A DNA stretch of 43,953 bases, taken from assembly GCA_040757335.1 (NCBI GenBank), contig JBFLXB010000031.1:1-43953 (forward strand), given 5' to 3'. The position numbers and the translations under genes are program-made. This document shows, piece by piece, positions 3,513 through 31,190 of this stretch. Positions within the stretch are counted from its first letter, which is position 1; every line of letters begins with the position of its first letter. The DNA is from Nitrospirota bacterium. GTDB taxonomy: Bacteria > Nitrospirota > Nitrospiria > 2-01-FULL-66-17. The notes under the pieces are model-generated. The model was given only the letters and a program-made list of their open reading frames with translations. It had not been told where the DNA came from and did not search any database.

Positions 3513-3763
3513 CGAGTTCTCAAGCCGAAACCAACGATATCTCCATTCTGATCCTGGGCCTCTCTGTCGCCAAATGACGCCCCGCATCGGGTGCGCGCGC
3601 TTCGTCTCTCAGCGGCCAGCGAAACGCACGTTGCATATCCCGACGTGAACCCCCGCACCGTTGACTCTCCGATCCACCATCGCGACAATAGAAAAACCTC
3701 CTCCGAACAGTGATACTGGGAGCGTACGGAGTGACGTGCAACAGGGCGCCGGAGGCGCGTTTC

Positions 3764-4174
3764 ATGTCGATCAGAACGCTCGCTGCGATCACGCTGCTGG
3801 TCGTCGCGCCGTGGGGATGTGCGGGCGCGCCGGAGCCCGCCCCGGTGACGATTCCCCCTGAACGCGTGGAGCAACTCATTCGGGCGCTGTCGACCCCGGT
3901 CGATCGGCCCCCGATGCTGAAGGATCCGGTCGCGCACCCCTACTATCCGAAAGAAGTGATCCCCGACAAACGGCCAGGGCTGGTCCTGCTCAAAATCGAC
4001 GTCGATGCCCAGGGTCGCGTGACTGCGGTCGAGGTGATCGAGTCCACGGCGTTGATCTTCGAGTCGCAAGCACGGCAGGCCGCTCGCCAATGGTCCTTCG
4101 AGCCCGCGCAACGGGACGGCGTGGCCGTGCCCGCCACGATCGTCGTACCTGTGGAGTTTAGCGAGAGAGAGTAA
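3764..4174 (+). CDS. TonB C-terminal domain protein, exported
   Basis: The ATG at 3764 is preceded by GGAGG eight bases upstream, which selects this start over the longer frame. The 136-residue product has a signal sequence ending near Cys19 (APWGC), a poor match to a lipobox but possibly a lipidation site. Residues about 55-136 form a TonB-C type fold: YYPKEVIPDKRPGLVLLKI, VDAQGRVTAVEVIES, then ARQAARQWSFEPAQRDG with the WxFxPA signature, closing on a hydrophobic strand. In TonB proteins this domain docks to outer-membrane transporters. Here there is no Pro-rich spacer or ordinary TonB anchor, so it is more likely a periplasmic TonB-domain protein. It is convergent with the cupredoxin gene. 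Confidence 0.8.
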   Translation: MSIRTLAAITLLVVAPWGCAGAPEPAPVTIPPERVEQLIRALSTPVDRPPMLKDPVAHPYYPKEVIPDKRPGLVLLKIDVDAQGRVTAVEVIESTALIFESQARQAARQWSFEPAQRDGVAVPATIVVPVEFSERE

Positions 4175-4199: not shown

Positions 4200-4619
4200 C
4201 TATCGCACGATCAGCGTGCCCTTCATCCCCGACTCATGATGGGACACCGGAACCTCCGCATCGCAGCGGAATCCAAATTCCCCCGCTTTCTTGGGTGTAA
4301 AGCGCAGCACCACCGTGGCACCCGGTAACACTTCGAGTTCCTCGACGCCATGAACGAGCGCAATCGTGCCCTTGGTTTCCAGATCCACGGTCACGTCCGA
4401 CAAGACATCGCTCACGAATTCATGGAGGACCTTGCCCGAGTTGACCAGGTGCAGTTCAACCGGCTTGCCGCTTTGGACCTCGACTCGAGCGGGTTCGTAC
4501 TTGTATTCAGTCAATGTGATCGTAACTTCCTGCGGAGCCGGCGGCGTGGTTCGCTCATCCGCCAGGGCGACGGCAGGAATGACCGCTGTCAGTACTCCAA
4601 ACAGAATCCAATACTTCAT
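4200..4619 (-). CDS. Periplasmic cupredoxin (blue copper) protein
   Basis: The 139-residue protein starts at ATG 4617-4619 (MKYWILFGV), with a signal peptide through about residue 20 (AVALA). The mature part is a beta-sandwich cupredoxin. Candidate copper ligands are His66 (KVLHEF), Cys119 (FRCDAE), His127/His128 (SHHESG) and Met132, the usual His...Cys...His...Met order. Its start overlaps the stop of the upstream four-helix membrane gene by 4 nt (ATGA), so the two are translationally coupled. Function is inferred as a periplasmic electron carrier or copper-binding partner of the flavin protein encoded two genes upstream. A frame extending upstream to 4748 overlaps that gene and is not the likely start. 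Confidence 0.85.
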   Translation of the reverse strand: MKYWILFGVLTAVIPAVALADERTTPPAPQEVTITLTEYKYEPARVEVQSGKPVELHLVNSGKVLHEFVSDVLSDVTVDLETKGTIALVHGVEELEVLPGATVVLRFTPKKAGEFGFRCDAEVPVSHHESGMKGTLIVR

Positions 4620-5110
4620 CGCTTCGCTCCCTTTCCCCACATGTCCAACAACGGCACCCCGATCAACACAATCGCGGTGCCCGTCATCACCACCCAGCTC
4701 GTGACCTGCAATAAGGCGAACCCTGGCGCCGCGAACCGAATCAGCCACGGCGAAGCCAAGTCGCTGAACGTGCCCGCAAACGCCAGCGCCACAACGGTTC
4801 GTTTGAATGAGCGGCCCACCGAGGTCGCGACAAACAGATGCGTCAACACCAACAACATGATCCCTTCGATAAAGGCGTGAAAGTGCATCTCTTCCAACAT
4901 CTGTCCCACCGGCCGGGGAAACAGATCCCCGTTGTCTGTACCCCGGTAGTGCTCGACAATCTGCTGATACTGCGGACCAACCCTGGTGAGCGCGATGGCG
5001 ACGAGCGTGAAATAACCGACCGCCGCAAACACCAGGAAGCCGGTGTAAATCGCTTTGACCTCGAAGGGGCTGTTCCGGATCTGGAAACCGTTGCGGGAGA
5101 AGTCCTTCAC
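4616..5110 (-). CDS. Four-helix membrane protein of the flavin/cupredoxin operon
   Basis: A 164-residue integral membrane protein with four predicted helices (about 20-43, 78-98, 104-124 and 130-155). It starts with a GTG whose bases overlap the stop of the ApbE/FMN gene (GTGA) and ends overlapping the cupredoxin start (ATGA), so it sits in a tightly coupled operon. Helix 2 begins with MHFHAF and ends with THLF, giving His76, His78 and His91. Histidines spaced along one membrane helix could ligate haem or metal, but no family signature is recognised. The 30-residue loop between helices 1 and 2 is polar and probably periplasmic. A role passing electrons between quinones and the flavin/copper partners is inference from context. 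Confidence 0.8.
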   Translation of the reverse strand: MKDFSRNGFQIRNSPFEVKAIYTGFLVFAAVGYFTLVAIALTRVGPQYQQIVEHYRGTDNGDLFPRPVGQMLEEMHFHAFIEGIMLLVLTHLFVATSVGRSFKRTVVALAFAGTFSDLASPWLIRFAAPGFALLQVTSWVVMTGTAIVLIGVPLLDMWGKGAKR

Positions 5111-6630
5111 GACGCGGTGGCCCCTGCCCCGTACACGACCGCGACCAGCGCCAAGGCTTTCTTCACCGCGTAGGTCGTCGATCGAGACGACAGGCTCGCG
5201 CCGCTGATTCCGTGCACGTCACGACCCAGTTTGAGCGGCGCGGCCAGGGTCTTGCCGGCAAACTGATCGAGAAAACGTTTGGAACGAATTTCCGATCCCT
5301 GCGATTCACGGTAGGTCAACACCTGCACGCCCCGCACAGATCCTTCGGGTGCGACGGCGACCATGAACGTGATCGGCTGTTCTTTGCCGATCACGTTCAA
5401 CACGGTCGCGTAGCCGATCACCCGTCCCTCCCGCTCGCCGACCCAAAACGTCGCCTCGGTATCGCGAATCCGACCGTCCATGAGCGTTTGCATGCGCGCT
5501 CGATGCGCGTCCGTCAGCGCGATGGTCTCATCTCTGAATCGATCGGCGTCCGGCATCAGCACCCGTAGAGCTTCCTCGCGGCTAAGGTAGACCACCGCGA
5601 ACCCGAGGGAAGGACGGATCGCCATGGCCGCAAACATCGCCAGCAGACCGCCGAGCACCCGCCGCCTGCTCACCAGACCGCGCGTTCGTTGTCCCACCAC
5701 CAGTCCCTTCCACCCCGGCGTCTCGACCATCGATAACTGCCGGGTGTCGCGGGCCACGATGAGACCTTGAACGCCCGCGCGGGTCAGGCACTCGACGCCG
5801 GGCTTCGGTCCCAGAACAAAGGCGGCGGTGGACAGAGCGTCCGCTTCCAACGCGCTCCCTGCCACGACCGATGCGCTCAGCGACGCGTCGGCAGGCCACC
5901 CACTCCGCGGGTCGAGGATATGGCCATACGGGGTGCCGCCGAGAATCACCGCCTGCTGATCGTTCGCCGACGTCGCAATGGCGCGGTCGCTGAGCTTGAC
6001 CACTTCGATGAGCCGGTTGGGATCCCGTGGGTTACGGATCCCCACGCGCCATGCCCCTTTTCCCGGTGGACGACCGAGCGCGTAGGTGGTACTTCCGAAA
6101 TGGACGAGCGCCGACGAAACGCCGTAAAGGCTGAGCAGGTGGACGACCCGGTCCACCGCGTACCCTTTGCCCATGGCCCCGAATTCGAGTTCAACCCCGG
6201 GGCACTGATACGCCACCGTGCCCGCGCGGTGATCAACCACGACACGGGTTGTCCCGGTTTTCGACAACGCCTTGCTGAATTCAGCGGCCGGCGGCGGCCC
6301 GTTGCGGTCGTCCTGATTCCGCCAAAGTCTTGTCAGCGGCGCGACCGTTGGATCAACCGCCCCTCCGCTGACTTTCGACAAACGCATCGCTTCGTCAATC
6401 AGCCGCAGCACGTCCGGCGACACATGCACCGGTCCGTACCCTGCCTCGCGATTGAGCCGAGAGACGTCGCTTTGCGGGTCGAATATGCTGAGCCGCTGCT
6501 CAAGGCGCACCGCCTCGTCAAACGCCGCGTCGAGCACCTCCCGGCCTCGCCGCGCGTCAATCCCGACCAACGTAATCTCCAACACGCACCCCATACAGGG
6601 GCGCGCGCCTTTGAGCAGCGGCCCACGCAC
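5107..6630 (-). CDS. ApbE-like FMN transferase fused to an FMN-binding domain
   Basis: A 507-residue fusion. Residues about 11-310 are an ApbE domain (FAD:protein FMN transferase): LSIFDPQSDVSRLN at 47-60, GAMGKGYAVDRV at 151-162, ILDPRSGWP at 238-246 and LEADALSTA at 261-269. Residues about 346-500 are an FMN-binding domain of the RnfG/NqrC type, with the attachment-type motif SGAS at 476-479. Between them lies SRRRVLGGLLAMFAAM (321-336), a twin-arginine-like or membrane-anchor segment. If functional it would leave the ApbE part cytoplasmic and export the flavin domain, whereas most ApbE proteins act outside the membrane; the topology is unresolved. The likely start is GTG at 6628-6630, 8 nt after the porin stop. 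Confidence 0.88.
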   Translation of the reverse strand: MRGPLLKGARPCMGCVLEITLVGIDARRGREVLDAAFDEAVRLEQRLSIFDPQSDVSRLNREAGYGPVHVSPDVLRLIDEAMRLSKVSGGAVDPTVAPLTRLWRNQDDRNGPPPAAEFSKALSKTGTTRVVVDHRAGTVAYQCPGVELEFGAMGKGYAVDRVVHLLSLYGVSSALVHFGSTTYALGRPPGKGAWRVGIRNPRDPNRLIEVVKLSDRAIATSANDQQAVILGGTPYGHILDPRSGWPADASLSASVVAGSALEADALSTAAFVLGPKPGVECLTRAGVQGLIVARDTRQLSMVETPGWKGLVVGQRTRGLVSRRRVLGGLLAMFAAMAIRPSLGFAVVYLSREEALRVLMPDADRFRDETIALTDAHRARMQTLMDGRIRDTEATFWVGEREGRVIGYATVLNVIGKEQPITFMVAVAPEGSVRGVQVLTYRESQGSEIRSKRFLDQFAGKTLAAPLKLGRDVHGISGASLSSRSTTYAVKKALALVAVVYGAGATAS

Positions 6631-6638
6631 GTTACGCC

Positions 6639-7832
6639 TCAGAACTGATACGCCACCCCCAAATTGAACCGGCTGCCGTCGTTGTCGGCGCCGTCTTCCC
6701 AGCTCTCCACGTCGCCCTTCACCGCAACATCCGGTATCGGGTAATACGCCAGTCCCGCGGTCATGACCTGGCGGTCATTGGCGGGGTCAGCGGTGAACCC
6801 GGCCGGAACCGACTCTTGGGTATTGAAGTCTTCGTAGCGGACAAACACCACGACCGCCTGGTTCGTGTCGGAGGCCACCAGCCTGAGGACGTCGTAGGCG
6901 GCTTCAAGGTACCACCCCGTCATCTCCTCTCCGATCGTCTCGGTCGTGAAGGCGCTGATCTGGTCGGCGCCGTCGACCTGGATCATCGTGTACACGCCGC
7001 GCAGGTCAAGGCCCGCCATGCGCAGCCGCGCATCAGCCTCCCAAATCCCGACTCCCGCATCCGACAACGCTGGATTCTTCGTGGTATTGGCACCGCCCTG
7101 GTAGGCCGAGAGTCCCAACTCCACGCCAGGTAGCCCGACGTATTCCAATCGTCCCACCACCGCGAGATCCTCGGAAGGCTGCTCCGCCACGTGTCCGCGC
7201 CCGCCGCGAATCCCGTTCGACGCGGAAAAGCCCTCGGCATTCAAGCCTGAAACGACATACACTCGATATTTGAGCCCCGCCGGAACCGAGCCGAAGAGCC
7301 CAACGCCACCCTCCTGCCAGGTGGTCGGGATGATGGTCCGCTGCACGTACGGCCGCTCCACGCTGTAGAACAGCGGCGGTTCATGAAATTCGTTCAGAGG
7401 ACCGACCGGCATGAGCATGCTGCCGGCGCGCACGTTGAACGCCGGCGTGATGAGAAAATCCAAGTACGCGAATTCGAGTTCGATTTCGGTTGCAGCGTGC
7501 TCAAAGTCCACCTCGGTGTGCACGCTGATGCGGTCGTTGAACTGGTAGCTCACCCCCCACACCATCCGGTGCAAATCCATGATCGCCGGATCGGCATCGT
7601 CGGGAACGCCCGATCCTTCGGGGCTGTTGAAGTGCAACTCGCCGTACCCGTGAAAGCTCAGTTTGCCCCCGCCGGATCCGCCGTGCGACTCCTCTCCACC
7701 GCCCGCTATTTGATCGAGCCGTCCCTCGATCCGATCCAGTCGTTCTGTCACCGACTCCTCCGCCAACGCATTCACCGCCAGCGGCCCTGCAAGCCACACA
7801 CAGATCCCCAGCGCCATCACCATCCTTCGCAT
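6639..7832 (-). CDS. Outer-membrane porin, OprP/OprO-like beta-barrel
   Basis: A 397-residue protein. The ATG at 7830-7832 has GGAGG six bases upstream; an adjacent GTG at 7835 is too close to it. A signal peptide (to about residue 24, ALA) is followed by a short coiled coil (VTERLDRIEGRLDQI), a Gly-rich spacer, then alternating amphipathic strands starting HGYGELHF and ending with a C-terminal Phe (NLGVAYQF), the outer-membrane assembly signal. Features such as DFLITPAFNVRAGSMLMPVG resemble phosphate-selective porin-type proteins, though the substrate cannot be read from sequence. It is the first large gene of the operon with the flavin, membrane and cupredoxin genes, suggesting a shared metal or electron route across the outer membrane. 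Confidence 0.85.
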   Translation of the reverse strand: MRRMVMALGICVWLAGPLAVNALAEESVTERLDRIEGRLDQIAGGGEESHGGSGGGKLSFHGYGELHFNSPEGSGVPDDADPAIMDLHRMVWGVSYQFNDRISVHTEVDFEHAATEIELEFAYLDFLITPAFNVRAGSMLMPVGPLNEFHEPPLFYSVERPYVQRTIIPTTWQEGGVGLFGSVPAGLKYRVYVVSGLNAEGFSASNGIRGGRGHVAEQPSEDLAVVGRLEYVGLPGVELGLSAYQGGANTTKNPALSDAGVGIWEADARLRMAGLDLRGVYTMIQVDGADQISAFTTETIGEEMTGWYLEAAYDVLRLVASDTNQAVVVFVRYEDFNTQESVPAGFTADPANDRQVMTAGLAYYPIPDVAVKGDVESWEDGADNDGSRFNLGVAYQF

Positions 7833-7944
7833 CACGTTCCTCCGTGGGTTAATGGTTCATCGGGCGCTGGGTGCTCGTCGTGCGCGGGGTGCTCGGTACC
7901 TGAAGACCGCTGGCCGCTGTGATGTGTGTTTCGCCCCTTCGATA

Positions 7945-8133
7945 TCAGGGCGCCTCTGGATCGCGCGGACGCGGCGCGAACCCCGTGATCTGATCCTGCG
8001 GGATCAGCATCGTCCGTTTACAGCGACGGCATTTCAGCTCAAGCGCGCCACCCTTCCAGCGCGCCAGCAAGCCCCCGCACAAGCACCGCACCTCCGTGGC
8101 GCGGCCTCTCGCCTCCGGTTGGCGGGGAGTCAC
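7945..8133 (-). CDS. Small Com-like zinc-ribbon protein
   Basis: The product has 62 residues, starting at GTG 8131-8133. It contains two Cys pairs, CLCGG (18-22) and CRRC (35-38), separated by WKGGALELK. That is the pattern of Com-family zinc ribbons named after the phage Mu translational activator Com, where the protein binds mRNA. It ends in a Pro/Arg tail. Located between fur and the porin operon on the same strand, it could be the first cistron of that operon, because the 110 bp before the porin show no promoter. A regulatory, RNA-binding role is inference from the family resemblance. Confidence 0.65.
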   Translation of the reverse strand: MTPRQPEARGRATEVRCLCGGLLARWKGGALELKCRRCKRTMLIPQDQITGFAPRPRDPEAP

Positions 8134-8179
8134 CGGAGGCGGCCTCCCCTGCCTGACGCACCCGGGAGCGTCGAGAGGT

Positions 8180-8207
8180 AATTGATATTGGAATTAGATT
8201 TCATTTT
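8180..8207 (-). promoter_or_regulatory. AT-rich promoter/operator upstream of the Com-porin operon, possible Fur site
   Basis: A sharply AT-rich island in GC-rich surroundings, about 50-80 bp before the Com-like gene. Read on the minus strand it contains AAATGAAAT (8198-8206), the same 9-mer found just upstream of fur (8785-8793, opposite strand). It is a weak match to the GATAAT-hexamer form of a Fur box. A metal-responsive operator is likely but unproved. Confidence 0.35.
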
Positions 8208-8285: not shown

Positions 8286-8783
8286 CTAGTGGTTGTGGTG
8301 GTGCGGGACGGGGTGCGCCCGCCGTCCTTTGTCATGACGGCCGGCCTCGCAGGCTTTGCACAATCCGTATAACTCGAGCTTGTGGAACGTGATCCGGAAA
8401 TCATGCTCACGAGCCACTTGCTCCTGGAACTCCTCGATCTGAAAATTCTCGAATTCGATGATCCGCCCGCACTGCGTGCAGATCAAATGGTCGTGGTGAG
8501 ATTTCCAGGCGACGTTGTCATAGATGGTTTTACCTTTTCCGAAGTGTCGTTCCTGGGCGAGTTCCCACTGACACAGCAACTTGAGGGTTCGATACACGGT
8601 GATAATGCCGATCGAAGGATCTTTCTTGGCGACCTCGTGGTAGAGGTCCTCGACCGTAATATGGTCCTGGTGCAGAAAAAGTTGCGCGATCAACTCACGC
8701 TGGTGAGTCAGTTTGAGCCCGTGTTCGCGAAGCCGTTCGTGCAGCAGATCTCGGGAGCGGGCCTTGATGGTGTTTTTCGCCAT
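8286..8783 (-). CDS. fur: Ferric uptake regulator family repressor
   Basis: A 165-residue Fur-family metalloregulator. The N-terminal winged helix is seen in LKLTHQRELIAQLF and IGIITVYRTLKLL (recognition helix). The C-terminal dimer/metal domain has HHDHLICTQCGRIIEF and a second CxxC pair, LYGLCKACE, matching the structural zinc site. The tail is His-rich (PHHHNH). The N-terminal extension and HDHLICTQCG fit Fur better than PerR or Zur, but metal specificity is not certain. No Shine-Dalgarno sequence precedes the ATG; instead an imperfect palindrome (8785-8800) sits directly before the start, suggesting autoregulation. The downstream minus-strand genes encode a porin and redox proteins, plausible Fur targets. 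Confidence 0.93.
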   Translation of the reverse strand: MAKNTIKARSRDLLHERLREHGLKLTHQRELIAQLFLHQDHITVEDLYHEVAKKDPSIGIITVYRTLKLLCQWELAQERHFGKGKTIYDNVAWKSHHDHLICTQCGRIIEFENFQIEEFQEQVAREHDFRITFHKLELYGLCKACEAGRHDKGRRAHPVPHHHNH

Positions 8784-26744: not shown

Positions 26745-26813
26745 CGCATCACGCTCCGATCTTTTTGAATTTACGATAGAATCTCACCCTATGGTCCTTA
26801 TACAAACCGGTGT

Positions 26814-26842
26814 ATTATACCGTGTTGATCCGTCCTTTACAA
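26814..26842 (-). promoter_or_regulatory. Sigma-70 promoter for rpmE and the superoperon
   Basis: On the minus strand TTGTAA (26842-26837) is followed by a 17-bp spacer and a perfect TATAAT (26819-26814). Transcription should start near 26807, giving a leader of about 60 nt before rpmE. This is the best promoter match for any gene in the superoperon. Confidence 0.75.
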
Positions 26843-26935
26843 GGACCCGGCCTAGAATCTTCACCAAATCGCCCCGGCGGCCGCTCCGCACCGCTGCTTG
26901 CGGACCTTCTGAGGCGTGTGCTACCCTCCGCCCCA

Positions 26936-27937
26936 ATGTGGCGATGTTTCGTCGCGCTGGCTGCGTGGACGGCCCTACTTTCGGCTTGTACGCGCGGCGA
27001 ACCCACCGTCGTCGCCATCGCGGTCCACCCGACGAACCCCCAGATCGTGTACGTATCGTCGAGCCAAAAGGGCGTCCTGAAAACCCGGGACGGCGCCGCA
27101 ACGTGGTCTCCCATCAACGAGGGTCTGGAACACTCCCAGGTGCTGGCGTTTGCCATCGATCCGACGGCTCCATCAACGGTGTACGCTGGGACGTTCGCCA
27201 ACGCCATTTACAAGAGCAGCGACGGCGGCCAATTGTGGCGGCCGGCCAACGTAGGGATGAAAGAGCACGTCTCAGTGGTTAATGCCTTTGCGATCTATCC
27301 ACGAGACCCCCAGGAAATCTACGCCGCCACCACGGTGGGCGTGTTCCGGACTAGGGATGGCGGAGCCAGTTGGGTGGAAACGGTCCACGGCATGGAAAGT
27401 GTGTATACGGTGGCCATCGCCTTCGATCCCCACACGCCCGATACCCTGTATGCGGGCACGAGCGGCGGAATGTACAAGAGCCGCGACCGGGGCTCCCGGT
27501 GGGAGATCATCAACCGAGGACTGATCGCGGGAGAGGTCGGCACCGCCATGGCGTTGGGCGTCAACGCCATCTCCGTCGACCCTGACCAGCCCCAGAGTCT
27601 GGTGATCGCAACCGGCAAGGGCATCTTCCTCAGCCGCAACGGCGGAGGCTCGTGGGAATCGCGAGCCACGGGTCAGTCGGTGCCGTTCATGACCGCGCTC
27701 CAGCGCGACCCCGCTGATCACGCGCGCTTGTACGCCGGCGGAGACAGCGGCGTGTTCGTCAGCATCGATCGCGGTGAGACGTGGCGGCCGGTGAGCACCG
27801 AACCGCGGCCCGGCGTGGTGCGCGCGTTGGCCGTTGATCCATCGACCCCCGGCGTGGTGTACGCGGGCACGCAGCGCGGGTTGTTCAAAAGCACCGACAG
27901 CGGCGGGACGTGGGTACGGATCGCAGGTTTGCGGTAG
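26936..27937 (+). CDS. Beta-propeller lipoprotein (BNR/sortilin-type repeats)
   Basis: A 333-residue exported protein starting at ATG 26936. The signal peptide WRCFVALAAWTALLSAC ends in a good lipobox (LSAC). The rest is about seven propeller blades of 40-45 residues, each with the pattern hydrophobic-DP...VYAGT...G(V/L)(F/Y)(K/R)S.DGG..W, e.g. STVYAGTFANAIYKSSDGG and GVVYAGTQRGLFKSTDSGG. Such repeats resemble VPS10/sortilin and YCF48-type photosynthesis assembly propellers. The upstream open frame lacks a signal and is not the start. Its last 28 bases overlap the outer-membrane protein gene, so the pair is an operon. Ligand unknown. Confidence 0.85.
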   Translation: MWRCFVALAAWTALLSACTRGEPTVVAIAVHPTNPQIVYVSSSQKGVLKTRDGAATWSPINEGLEHSQVLAFAIDPTAPSTVYAGTFANAIYKSSDGGQLWRPANVGMKEHVSVVNAFAIYPRDPQEIYAATTVGVFRTRDGGASWVETVHGMESVYTVAIAFDPHTPDTLYAGTSGGMYKSRDRGSRWEIINRGLIAGEVGTAMALGVNAISVDPDQPQSLVIATGKGIFLSRNGGGSWESRATGQSVPFMTALQRDPADHARLYAGGDSGVFVSIDRGETWRPVSTEPRPGVVRALAVDPSTPGVVYAGTQRGLFKSTDSGGTWVRIAGLR

Positions 27938-28998: not shown

Positions 28999-30930
28999 TC
29001 ACCGCAAGCCGAAGAAACCTTGCTTCGCCGCAAGGTTGACCCCCACAAAAACCCCGTGCTCGTGCGATCCCGCCATGATCAATCCCGTGTCCGCCACCGC
29101 AATCGTTTCGAACGGCACCACCGGGAACGCTCCGTGCGTCGGCCTCCACTCGCGGCCGCCGCGACTCCACCACACCCCGGCGCTGGTTGCCGCCAACAGG
29201 ACGTCGTCGCGGCCGCCATCATCTCGAGCCAACGCCCGAATCAGGACCGATCGAGGGAGGTCCGCGCCGATCGCCTCCCAGCCCTTAGAGGATCCTCCGT
29301 GTCGGTACACGGTTCGGTCGGTCCACGCGTAGAGCGAGCGGCCGGCCGCCACTCCCAGCACCTCCTGCGACGCCGCGGGGGTTCCGAGCGACGTCCACCG
29401 ATCACCGTCATCGCGCGTGAACACCTCGCGCGCGGTCAGGACCACGATCCGATCGTCCGGAGTCAGCGCCACATCCCGCACCGGTCCGGATGACGGATCA
29501 AGCGCCACGGCCACCCACGCCGAGGCTCCGAGCGCCCGCGTAAACAGGCCCGAGGATGTCGCCGCGTACAGGAAATTCGCACCCGCCGCCAGTTCGATCG
29601 GAGAGCCGGAGAGTCCTTCGATGTCCGGAACCCAACGGCTCTTGGTCCAATCCGCGCGATAAATCACCTCGGGAGTTGCGGCGTACTGGACCCCCTTGGA
29701 GTCGACGACCAACGATCGGATCGTCCTGGAGTCGATTCCGTCGTTAAACGGTCCCCAACTCTGGCCCCCGTCCTTGCTCCGATAGAGGCCGTTGGTGTGT
29801 GTCCCGGCGAATAAGCCGCGCCGGGCGTCGGCCGCCAGCGTGTTCACGCCCGGAAACAGCAGGCCTCTGTCGATCGTCCGCCACTTCCCGTTGACGTCGC
29901 GAACCGCGACGCCGGCCGACGTGCCGGCATACACCGCCCCGTCGCGAGCCAGCAACAAACTCTGAACGTTCCGGTTCGGCATTCCCTCGCTGATCGACTC
30001 CCAGCGGCGTCCGCCGTTGACGCTGTGGAACACGCCATCCCCGGTCCCGGCGTACACGGCGTCCGGGCCCACGGCCAAACCCCGGATCGACAGGTTCGTC
30101 AACCCCTCATTGGCCGGGATCCAGTGGCGACCTTGGTCGGTGGTCTTGAACACGCCTCCTCCGAAGCTGCCGGCGTAGATCGCGCCCGAACCGTCAATGG
30201 CGAGCACGCGAATGAAGTTCTCTCGCAGCCCGCGCTCGTCGAACAATCCCTCGTTGATGGGCCGCCACTTCGCACCTCTGTCCGCGCTGGCGAACAGCCC
30301 GTTGCCGCCCGTGCCGGTGTAGAGGGTGCCGTCGGGCCCGAGAGCCAACGATCGTGCCAGCGTAAGCTCCAAACCGCTGTTGGCCGCATCCCACCGACGG
30401 CCCCGGTCCGCACTCTTGAACACGCCGGACCCGGTGCCCGCGTAGAGGAGACCGGAGCGCGGGTCGTGAAGGATCGACGCCACCTGCTCGGGGCCAATGC
30501 CCTCTCCGCTCGCCACCCAGTGGCGTCCGCCGTCTTCGCTGCGGAACAAGCCGCCTTGAATCGTCCCGGCGAACACCGCGCCGTCCGGCGTCGTCGCCAG
30601 GGTCATCAGGAACCGGTCCGTGGGGCCCTGCTCGGCCGGCGTCCACAGGTCCGCGTCGCGGCGTTTGATGTACACCCCGTCCCCGAACGTCCCGGCGTAG
30701 ATGGTGCCATCCGCACCCTCGGCAAGCGCTTGAACGCTGCCCGCGGTCACTGGGCCGTTGGTCTGGTACAACGTCACGTCTCCCGGCACCGGCGTCTGAT
30801 ACCCCTCCTCACGAGTGAGATATTCGAACGGCTCCAGCATCTTGCCGTTGCCGGTCTGTTCGCACCCCTGCGGCTGGCCGCCCATCGCCACCCCGACCGC
30901 CACCACTATTCCCCACAATCGTGTACGCAC
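28999..30930 (-). CDS. Large beta-propeller envelope protein (BNR-type repeats)
   Basis: A 643-residue exported protein. The GTG at 30928-30930 has AAGGAGG five bases upstream; an adjacent GTG is too close. The signal sequence TRLWGIVVAVGVAMGG ends near a Cys (PQGC) that is a weak lipobox. About thirteen repeats of 40-45 residues follow, with the motif G.(I/L)YAGT..G(G/V)(V/L)F(K/R)S.D.G..W, e.g. GTIYAGTFGDGVYIKRRD and SGLLYAGTGSGVFKSADRG, enough for two propellers. It is convergent with and similar in design to the propeller lipoprotein at 26936. Function unknown; protein or polymer binding is typical of such folds. Confidence 0.85.
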   Translation of the reverse strand: MRTRLWGIVVAVGVAMGGQPQGCEQTGNGKMLEPFEYLTREEGYQTPVPGDVTLYQTNGPVTAGSVQALAEGADGTIYAGTFGDGVYIKRRDADLWTPAEQGPTDRFLMTLATTPDGAVFAGTIQGGLFRSEDGGRHWVASGEGIGPEQVASILHDPRSGLLYAGTGSGVFKSADRGRRWDAANSGLELTLARSLALGPDGTLYTGTGGNGLFASADRGAKWRPINEGLFDERGLRENFIRVLAIDGSGAIYAGSFGGGVFKTTDQGRHWIPANEGLTNLSIRGLAVGPDAVYAGTGDGVFHSVNGGRRWESISEGMPNRNVQSLLLARDGAVYAGTSAGVAVRDVNGKWRTIDRGLLFPGVNTLAADARRGLFAGTHTNGLYRSKDGGQSWGPFNDGIDSRTIRSLVVDSKGVQYAATPEVIYRADWTKSRWVPDIEGLSGSPIELAAGANFLYAATSSGLFTRALGASAWVAVALDPSSGPVRDVALTPDDRIVVLTAREVFTRDDGDRWTSLGTPAASQEVLGVAAGRSLYAWTDRTVYRHGGSSKGWEAIGADLPRSVLIRALARDDGGRDDVLLAATSAGVWWSRGGREWRPTHGAFPVVPFETIAVADTGLIMAGSHEHGVFVGVNLAAKQGFFGLR

Positions 30931-31190
30931 CACAACCTCCTTCGCTCCCGACACGCCGCTGTTCGACCGCATCATTTGACGCGGACCCAGGTCCACCCGA
31001 CCACGCAACGCCGGATCTTCCTCGGGTTACCCACTCTGGATGTTTTCGGCCAATTCCACCAGGGTTATGGCTCCCGTCTCCTCACCGATCCCCTTGATTA
31101 CTGGCGGAGAGCACGCCGGACGCGGCGCGGCCTCCTTCTTGCTACCCGTGATGAGGTTTCCGCTGGCGTATCTGGGCTCATTGTTTAACC

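Follow-up and report, generated by a model that had tools for sequence, protein, structure and literature searches.

A conserved porin, flavoprotein and four-helix membrane protein module in Nitrospirota, probably for reductive iron uptake

Introduction

Why would a bacterium of the class Nitrospiria place an outer-membrane porin, a flavoprotein, a small membrane protein and a copper protein in one compact operon next to fur? The operon occupies positions 4200–8207 on the minus strand of a 43,953-nucleotide stretch of DNA from a Nitrospirota bacterium (the window; its genome is labeled G000). A first-pass annotation had envisaged electrons passing from the membrane to flavin mononucleotide (FMN) and on to copper, perhaps for metal reduction or for metal uptake through the porin, under Fur control. 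Nitrospirota is the phylum of the main nitrite oxidizers, some of its lineages carry out complete ammonia oxidation or manganese oxidation, and Nitrospira and its relatives possess enzymes very rich in iron. The open-access literature that we searched, which excludes subscription journals, held no account of how these bacteria acquire iron and no described Nitrospira system of the present kind. Comparing the operon with its relatives, we give a probability of roughly two in three to the reading that it is a reductive iron uptake module in which electrons pass from quinol through a four-helix haem protein and FMN to Fe(III).

Results

Conservation of the gene set

In order of transcription, the window operon encodes a 62-residue CxC...CxxC protein, a porin (6639–7835), an ApbE-FMN_bind fusion (5107–6630), a 164-residue four-helix membrane protein, here called 4TM (4616–5110), and a cupredoxin, with fur (8286–8783) upstream, all on the minus strand. 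Overlaps of a few bases join the last three genes, the GTG start of 4TM lying across the stop of the fusion gene and the ATG start of the cupredoxin gene across that of 4TM, an arrangement that amounts to translational coupling. Pfam, AlphaFold2 (AF2) and Foldseek results, together with these overlaps, uphold the coupled set as first described. The regulator matches Pfam FUR (1.8e-35), and its best NCBIfam models are Fur-type, all scoring below their curated cut-offs.

The 4TM gene was present in 76 of 98 genomes in our sample of relatives, and a named genome collection yielded 218 4TM relatives, of which 80 were kept, nearly all of them labeled Nitrospirota, Nitrospira or Troglogloeales. Of 76 testable loci, 75 have FMN_bind directly upstream of 4TM, and a porin lies within 4.2 kb of 4TM in 55 of 57; the recurrence of neighbors that had been suggested as a check on the first description is thus borne out. 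Over 70 loci, the pairwise distances of 4TM, FMN_bind and porin are correlated with r = 0.86–0.97 against a permutation maximum of 0.34, a correlation to which inherited relatedness contributes. The gene set is not a chance assemblage. The module occurs in Candidatus Manganitrophus (L036) and across nitrite-oxidizing Nitrospira, and the porin-FMN-4TM core extends to other classes of the phylum (L124, L125) and to one contig of a metagenome-assembled genome (MAG) labeled as Acidobacteria (L110). The spread outside Nitrospirota rests on this single MAG contig, which could be mis-binned.

Iron-related context and Fur sites

The Nitrospira module sits in an island of about 12 kb (L095, L128) whose importer side comprises fur, an FbpA/FutA-like binding protein, a permease, an ATPase, ExbB, ExbD and TonB, and whose module side comprises ApbE, the zinc-ribbon protein, the porin, a small lipoprotein, FMN_bind and 4TM. 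Candidatus Manganitrophus carries, in a row, iron ATP-binding cassette (ABC) genes, fur, zinc ribbon, porin, ApbE-FMN and 4TM. The nearest PDB entries to the ABC binding protein are 7li0 (E 8e-127), an "Fe(3+) ABC transporter substrate-binding protein", and 2pt1, an iron transport protein; in five of the genomes checked (G003, G010, G014, G018 and G020) the gene for such a protein shares a contig with 4TM, at a distance of about 7–16 kb. In two relatives of the window's layout, fur and the porin gene flank a gene for an FTR1 permease that has both REXXE motifs; FTR1 is present and linked in genomes G007 and G016. Two relatives have FTR1, cupredoxin and FMN_bind genes in one cluster, and in another class (L125) DtxR-FeoA and FeoB adjoin the module. 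Ferritin is encoded near the module in L124, and bacterioferritins downstream in L095. This iron-gene context in relatives supports the earlier suggestion of a link to metal uptake through the porin, with iron as the metal. FeoB itself is ruled out as the importer for Nitrospiria, as FeoB_C was matched in 0 of 96 Nitrospiria genomes versus 7 of 14 controls; a ZIP transporter is present in the window's genome.

We scored as Fur-box-like any site with at least 14 of 19 matches to GATAATGATAATCATTATC no more than 900 bp upstream of the porin. Of 63 loci, 55 have such a site, and site density reaches 1.32/kb upstream of the porin versus 0.031/kb elsewhere in the same loci, a 43-fold difference. 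Most Nitrospira matches are identical (GATATTAATAATCGTTCTC) and lie a short distance before the zinc-ribbon gene; these copies are related and not independent, and the sites in L034, L038, L059, L124 and L125 differ in sequence. In L129 and L032 the site lies upstream of fur. These sequence matches make Fur control likely in most relatives.

The same context bears on whether the module might instead serve respiratory or extracellular electron transfer, such as electron uptake from Mn(II) or Fe(II) or dissimilatory metal reduction. Candidatus Manganitrophus is a manganese oxidizer, and a porin combined with redox proteins resembles a porin-cytochrome conduit; however, the module has no multihaem cytochrome, it is not confined to manganese oxidizers but spans nitrite-oxidizing Nitrospira, and Fur boxes with iron-uptake neighbors are the signature of assimilation. 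A Pcc/Mto-type conduit was rejected for the window, whose module proteins contain no CxxCH motif of the kind found in multihaem c-type cytochromes. We consider a respiratory or extracellular role the least probable of the readings weighed here.

The flavin-carrying component

The 507-residue fusion matches Pfam ApbE (1e-71) and FMN_bind (8.5e-10), and its ApbE half matches flavin transferases in the PDB with E values down to 1e-40. This half is N-terminal and has no export signal, while a twin-arginine signal-like segment, SRRRVLGGLLAMFAAMA, directly precedes the FMN_bind domain, whose flavinylation motif is SGAS. All complete FMN proteins that we inspected carry [ST]GA[ST], in the form SGAT or TGAT in complete relatives. 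Judged by motif, a twin-arginine segment (e.g., SRRRFLK or NRRHFLA) separates ApbE from FMN_bind in 13 of 13 ApbE-FMN fusions with a readable joint. The two functions are split in Nitrospira, where the FMN_bind protein has a Sec-type signal, again by motif, and the separate ApbE has a lipobox-like N-terminus.

Because ApbE is fused to its own substrate through a putative internal twin-arginine translocation (Tat) signal, flavin in the fused lineages is probably attached in cis in the cytoplasm, after which the FMN domain would cross by Tat with ApbE staying inside. Known ApbE fusions include ApbE-DUF2271 (PMC8238504) and trypanosomatid fumarate reductase (PMC12052999), and word searches of this ApbE review and of the eLife survey (PMC8238504) turned up no reference to Tat. 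Membership of the FMN_bind part in RnfG was rejected, its score of 33.1 bits falling below the cut-off of 102 (TIGR01947).

The four-helix membrane protein

Searches of Pfam, NCBIfam and PDB sequences with 4TM returned no match, and nothing places it in a known unrelated family, one of the two outcomes that had been named as undoing the first description. Ten diverse members of the 4TM family likewise matched none of NapH, MsrQ, PepSY, DsbD, NqrB/RnfD or DUF4405 in Pfam. The AF2 model consists of four long helices (predicted local distance difference test score, pLDDT, 87.8), and the sequence holds His76, His78 and His91, both as the first-pass annotation had it. Foldseek found no solved fold for this model at E≤0.001. 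A MAPEG-like or styrene oxide isomerase fold was rejected, the top matches (E 0.7–1.1) not being significant; styrene oxide isomerase binds haem, and this match is too weak to have been used.

An alignment of 24 4TM homologs reveals that H76, H78, H91, E73, Y55 and other residues are invariant. H78 and H91 lie 13 residues apart on the same helix. Haem ligands in cytochrome b helices are spaced in this way, which makes it possible that two haems are shared across a 4TM homodimer. Such sharing, with two haems across a homodimer, has been proposed for FezC (PMC11334425). Profile searches further uncovered distant relatives of about 250 residues that carry CxxCH between the first transmembrane helix (TM1) and the HxH helix. 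One is encoded in the window's own genome (G000:C1:217156-217449; L122:5725-6480) and others in L118–L121 and L123:5124-5849, each with a single CxxCH separating TM1 from a helix that bears [TS]H[IV]H; Pfam matches of two full-length members were unconvincing. Very few residues stay invariant when 4TM is compared with these c-haem relatives, and H76 and H78 belong to them. The presence of c-haem members in the wider family supports a redox role for 4TM, without proving it.

A Nitrospirota contig (L123:3928-5849) encodes, in a row, a short 4TM relative, an FMN_bind-like protein without GA[ST] and a c-haem 4TM relative, and this row adjoins a P-type metal ATPase. It is possibly a flavin-to-haem swap of the porin-FMN-4TM module.

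The conserved residues of 4TM could also be read as a metal site. In such an iron module, 4TM would be an inner-membrane Fe(II) channel or a metal-binding chaperone with an ExxHxH...H site, and the electrons for FMN would come from elsewhere. E73, H76, H78 and H91 are invariant among module members, but HxH is common to the relatives with a covalent c-haem motif. The missing FeoB of the 96 Nitrospiria genomes, and the lack of a linked importer in the window and several relatives, would leave room for a channel, whereas in most lineages importers of other kinds adjoin the module and make an importing role for 4TM unnecessary. Finally, 4TM has no fold match to a known cytochrome, yet known flavinylation clusters usually hold a transmembrane electron donor (PMC8238504). 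On balance we regard a channel or chaperone as unlikely, and favor 4TM as the electron donor of a reductive iron uptake module.

Porin, zinc-ribbon protein, lipoprotein and cupredoxin

The window porin has no Pfam match and no PDB match by sequence profile, and was placed by fold search only. Its AF2 model has 16 strands (pLDDT 80), and Foldseek aligns it with 16-stranded trimeric porins at E~1e-11, including OprP (2o4v) and OprO; six of 11 relatives match Porin_O_P. The 62-residue zinc-ribbon-like protein (7945–8133, minus strand) is real and conserved, with a core RCxCG...ELKCKRCKR, and precedes the porin in most loci. Its label as "Com-like" did not survive, as the open reading frame has no Pfam match and Zn_ribbon_Com (PF10122) was not found in G000 at E≤0.01; it perhaps acts in RNA binding or regulation. 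In most Nitrospira loci its gene (L095:5069-5194) is the first of the operon and closely follows the Fur box. In about 55 loci the porin and FMN_bind genes flank one for a conserved small lipoprotein of about 150 residues (L095:6845-7306, L128:14533-14988), which has no confident Pfam family, DUF3576 (E 0.007) falling below the cut-off.

The exported cupredoxin (4200–4619, minus strand; Pfam Cupredoxin_1, 1.4e-15) is accessory. Cupredoxin genes stand beside the module in a minority of loci, namely the window, L031–L033 and L129, and at another place in L041. Coupling of the window cupredoxin to 4TM, and cupredoxins following 4TM in L031–L033 and L129, would suit a chain that runs from the membrane through FMN to the cupredoxin and uses copper as its acceptor; however, most loci with porin, FMN and 4TM, by a wide margin, yielded no cupredoxin, and FTR1 is linked wherever visible at cupredoxin loci, which points to re-oxidation for FTR1. 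We therefore think a working copper chain very improbable. Because the cupredoxin is lineage-specific, FMN-to-copper transfer is not a core step, and what endures of the chain first proposed is a module for electron transfer in the envelope, based on FMN that is probably bound covalently. By analogy with Ftr1-type systems (PMC9174327), the cupredoxin, where present, most likely re-oxidizes or hands over iron; the window's genome lacks FTR1, and the cupredoxin encoded there may be a vestige or work with a different importer.

Adjoining the cupredoxin gene, a convergent gene (3710–4174) encodes a short lipoprotein-like product with a TonB C-terminal domain. Elsewhere in the window, two large BNR/sortilin-like beta-propeller proteins (26810–27937 and 29002–31008) have no relation to the operon.

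Discussion

We propose that iron, probably as Fe(III) chelates, would enter the periplasm through the porin, and that 4TM would draw electrons from the quinone pool and relay them to the periplasmic FMN domain, probably by b-type haem on H76/H78/H91 and perhaps across a homodimer. The FMN domain, its FMN installed by ApbE, would then reduce Fe(III) to Fe(II) and so release the iron from its ligands. The importer would differ by lineage, with an iron ABC system in Nitrospira and Candidatus Manganitrophus, FTR1 with cupredoxin-type re-oxidation in sister families and FeoAB in another class. The genes with their conservation, linkage and motifs, their iron-related neighbors and the enrichment of Fur boxes in relatives are observed; in this scheme we infer the haem, the quinol, the direction of electron flow, Fe(III) as acceptor, the reductase activity and the topology.

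Several observations weigh against the scheme. No Fur box was detected upstream of the window operon, the best match being 11/19, and for this reason Fur control, likely in most relatives, is unproven in the window. No importer gene adjoins the operon; the iron ABC binding protein is encoded on another contig (C19), and the window's genome has no FTR1. Since FeoB_C is missing from the 96 Nitrospiria genomes, an Fe(II) product would need ABC, ZIP or FTR1, and iron ABC systems are usually regarded as Fe(III) importers. The case for haem in 4TM draws on conserved histidines and a CxxCH-bearing cousin; the fold search gave no supporting match, and H91 is not conserved once the c-haem relatives are included.

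A further-reaching version, which we advance tentatively and at somewhat less than even odds, holds that 4TM founds a family of small quinol-to-flavin b-type cytochromes, that ApbE-Tat-FMN is a self-flavinylating precursor whose N-terminal transferase acts on the C-terminal domain ahead of Tat export, and that the two make up the principal ferric reductase of Nitrospira, under Fur control. If the proposal is right, the module is a class-wide answer to iron acquisition in Nitrospiria, a conserved family outside Pfam gains a function and flavinylation systems gain a transmembrane partner. The cis-fusion with its internal Tat signal would likewise be a new way of loading covalent flavin before export.

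Compared with known systems, the module shares the FMN_bind domain with RnfG/NqrC, whose RnfG models match it weakly and far below family cut-offs, but the RnfD/NqrB partner is not in the window operon. FTR1, cupredoxin and FMN_bind in one cluster link two relatives to P19-FTR1-FMN_bind iron assimilation clusters and to EfeUOB/FtrABCD (PMC8238504, PMC9174327), whereas the window genome has no FTR1 and the module adds the porin and 4TM core. P19 (PF10634) was rejected, the sole periplasmic copper-protein candidate matching Cupredoxin_1 instead. Cyanobacterial reductive iron uptake, with porins or TonB-dependent transporters (TBDT), ExbB-ExbD, the alternative respiratory terminal oxidase (ARTO) and FutABC/FeoB/ZIP/cFtr1, provides a described route from porin through periplasmic reduction to FeoB, ZIP, Ftr1 or FutABC (PMC7676907). 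Porin entry, periplasmic reduction and interchangeable importers are alike in our proposal, and the ExbBD-TonB and Fut-type ABC genes of the Nitrospira island extend the likeness. The proposed reductase here is FMN with 4TM in one operon and theirs is a terminal oxidase, which makes this an analogy between reductases that are not homologous.

The closest comparison is with flavinylation-associated electron-transfer systems (NapH-, MsrQ-, PepSY-, DsbD- and NQR/RNF-like, and DUF4405/FezC; PMC8238504, PMC11334425). These share with the module ApbE, an FMN_bind domain with [ST]GA[ST] (probably exported in the module), a membrane protein bearing histidines and co-location with iron transporters, and Fur repression of their PepSY type resembles the Fur control likely in most relatives of the window operon; flavinylation has been linked to iron transporters and Fur (PMC8238504). 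In contrast, the membrane partner here is a four-helix family outside Pfam, and the module adds a conserved porin and zinc-ribbon protein and, in several lineages, the ApbE-Tat-FMN fusion. Because its membrane component fits no named class, we place the module as a new variant of flavinylation-associated electron transfer.

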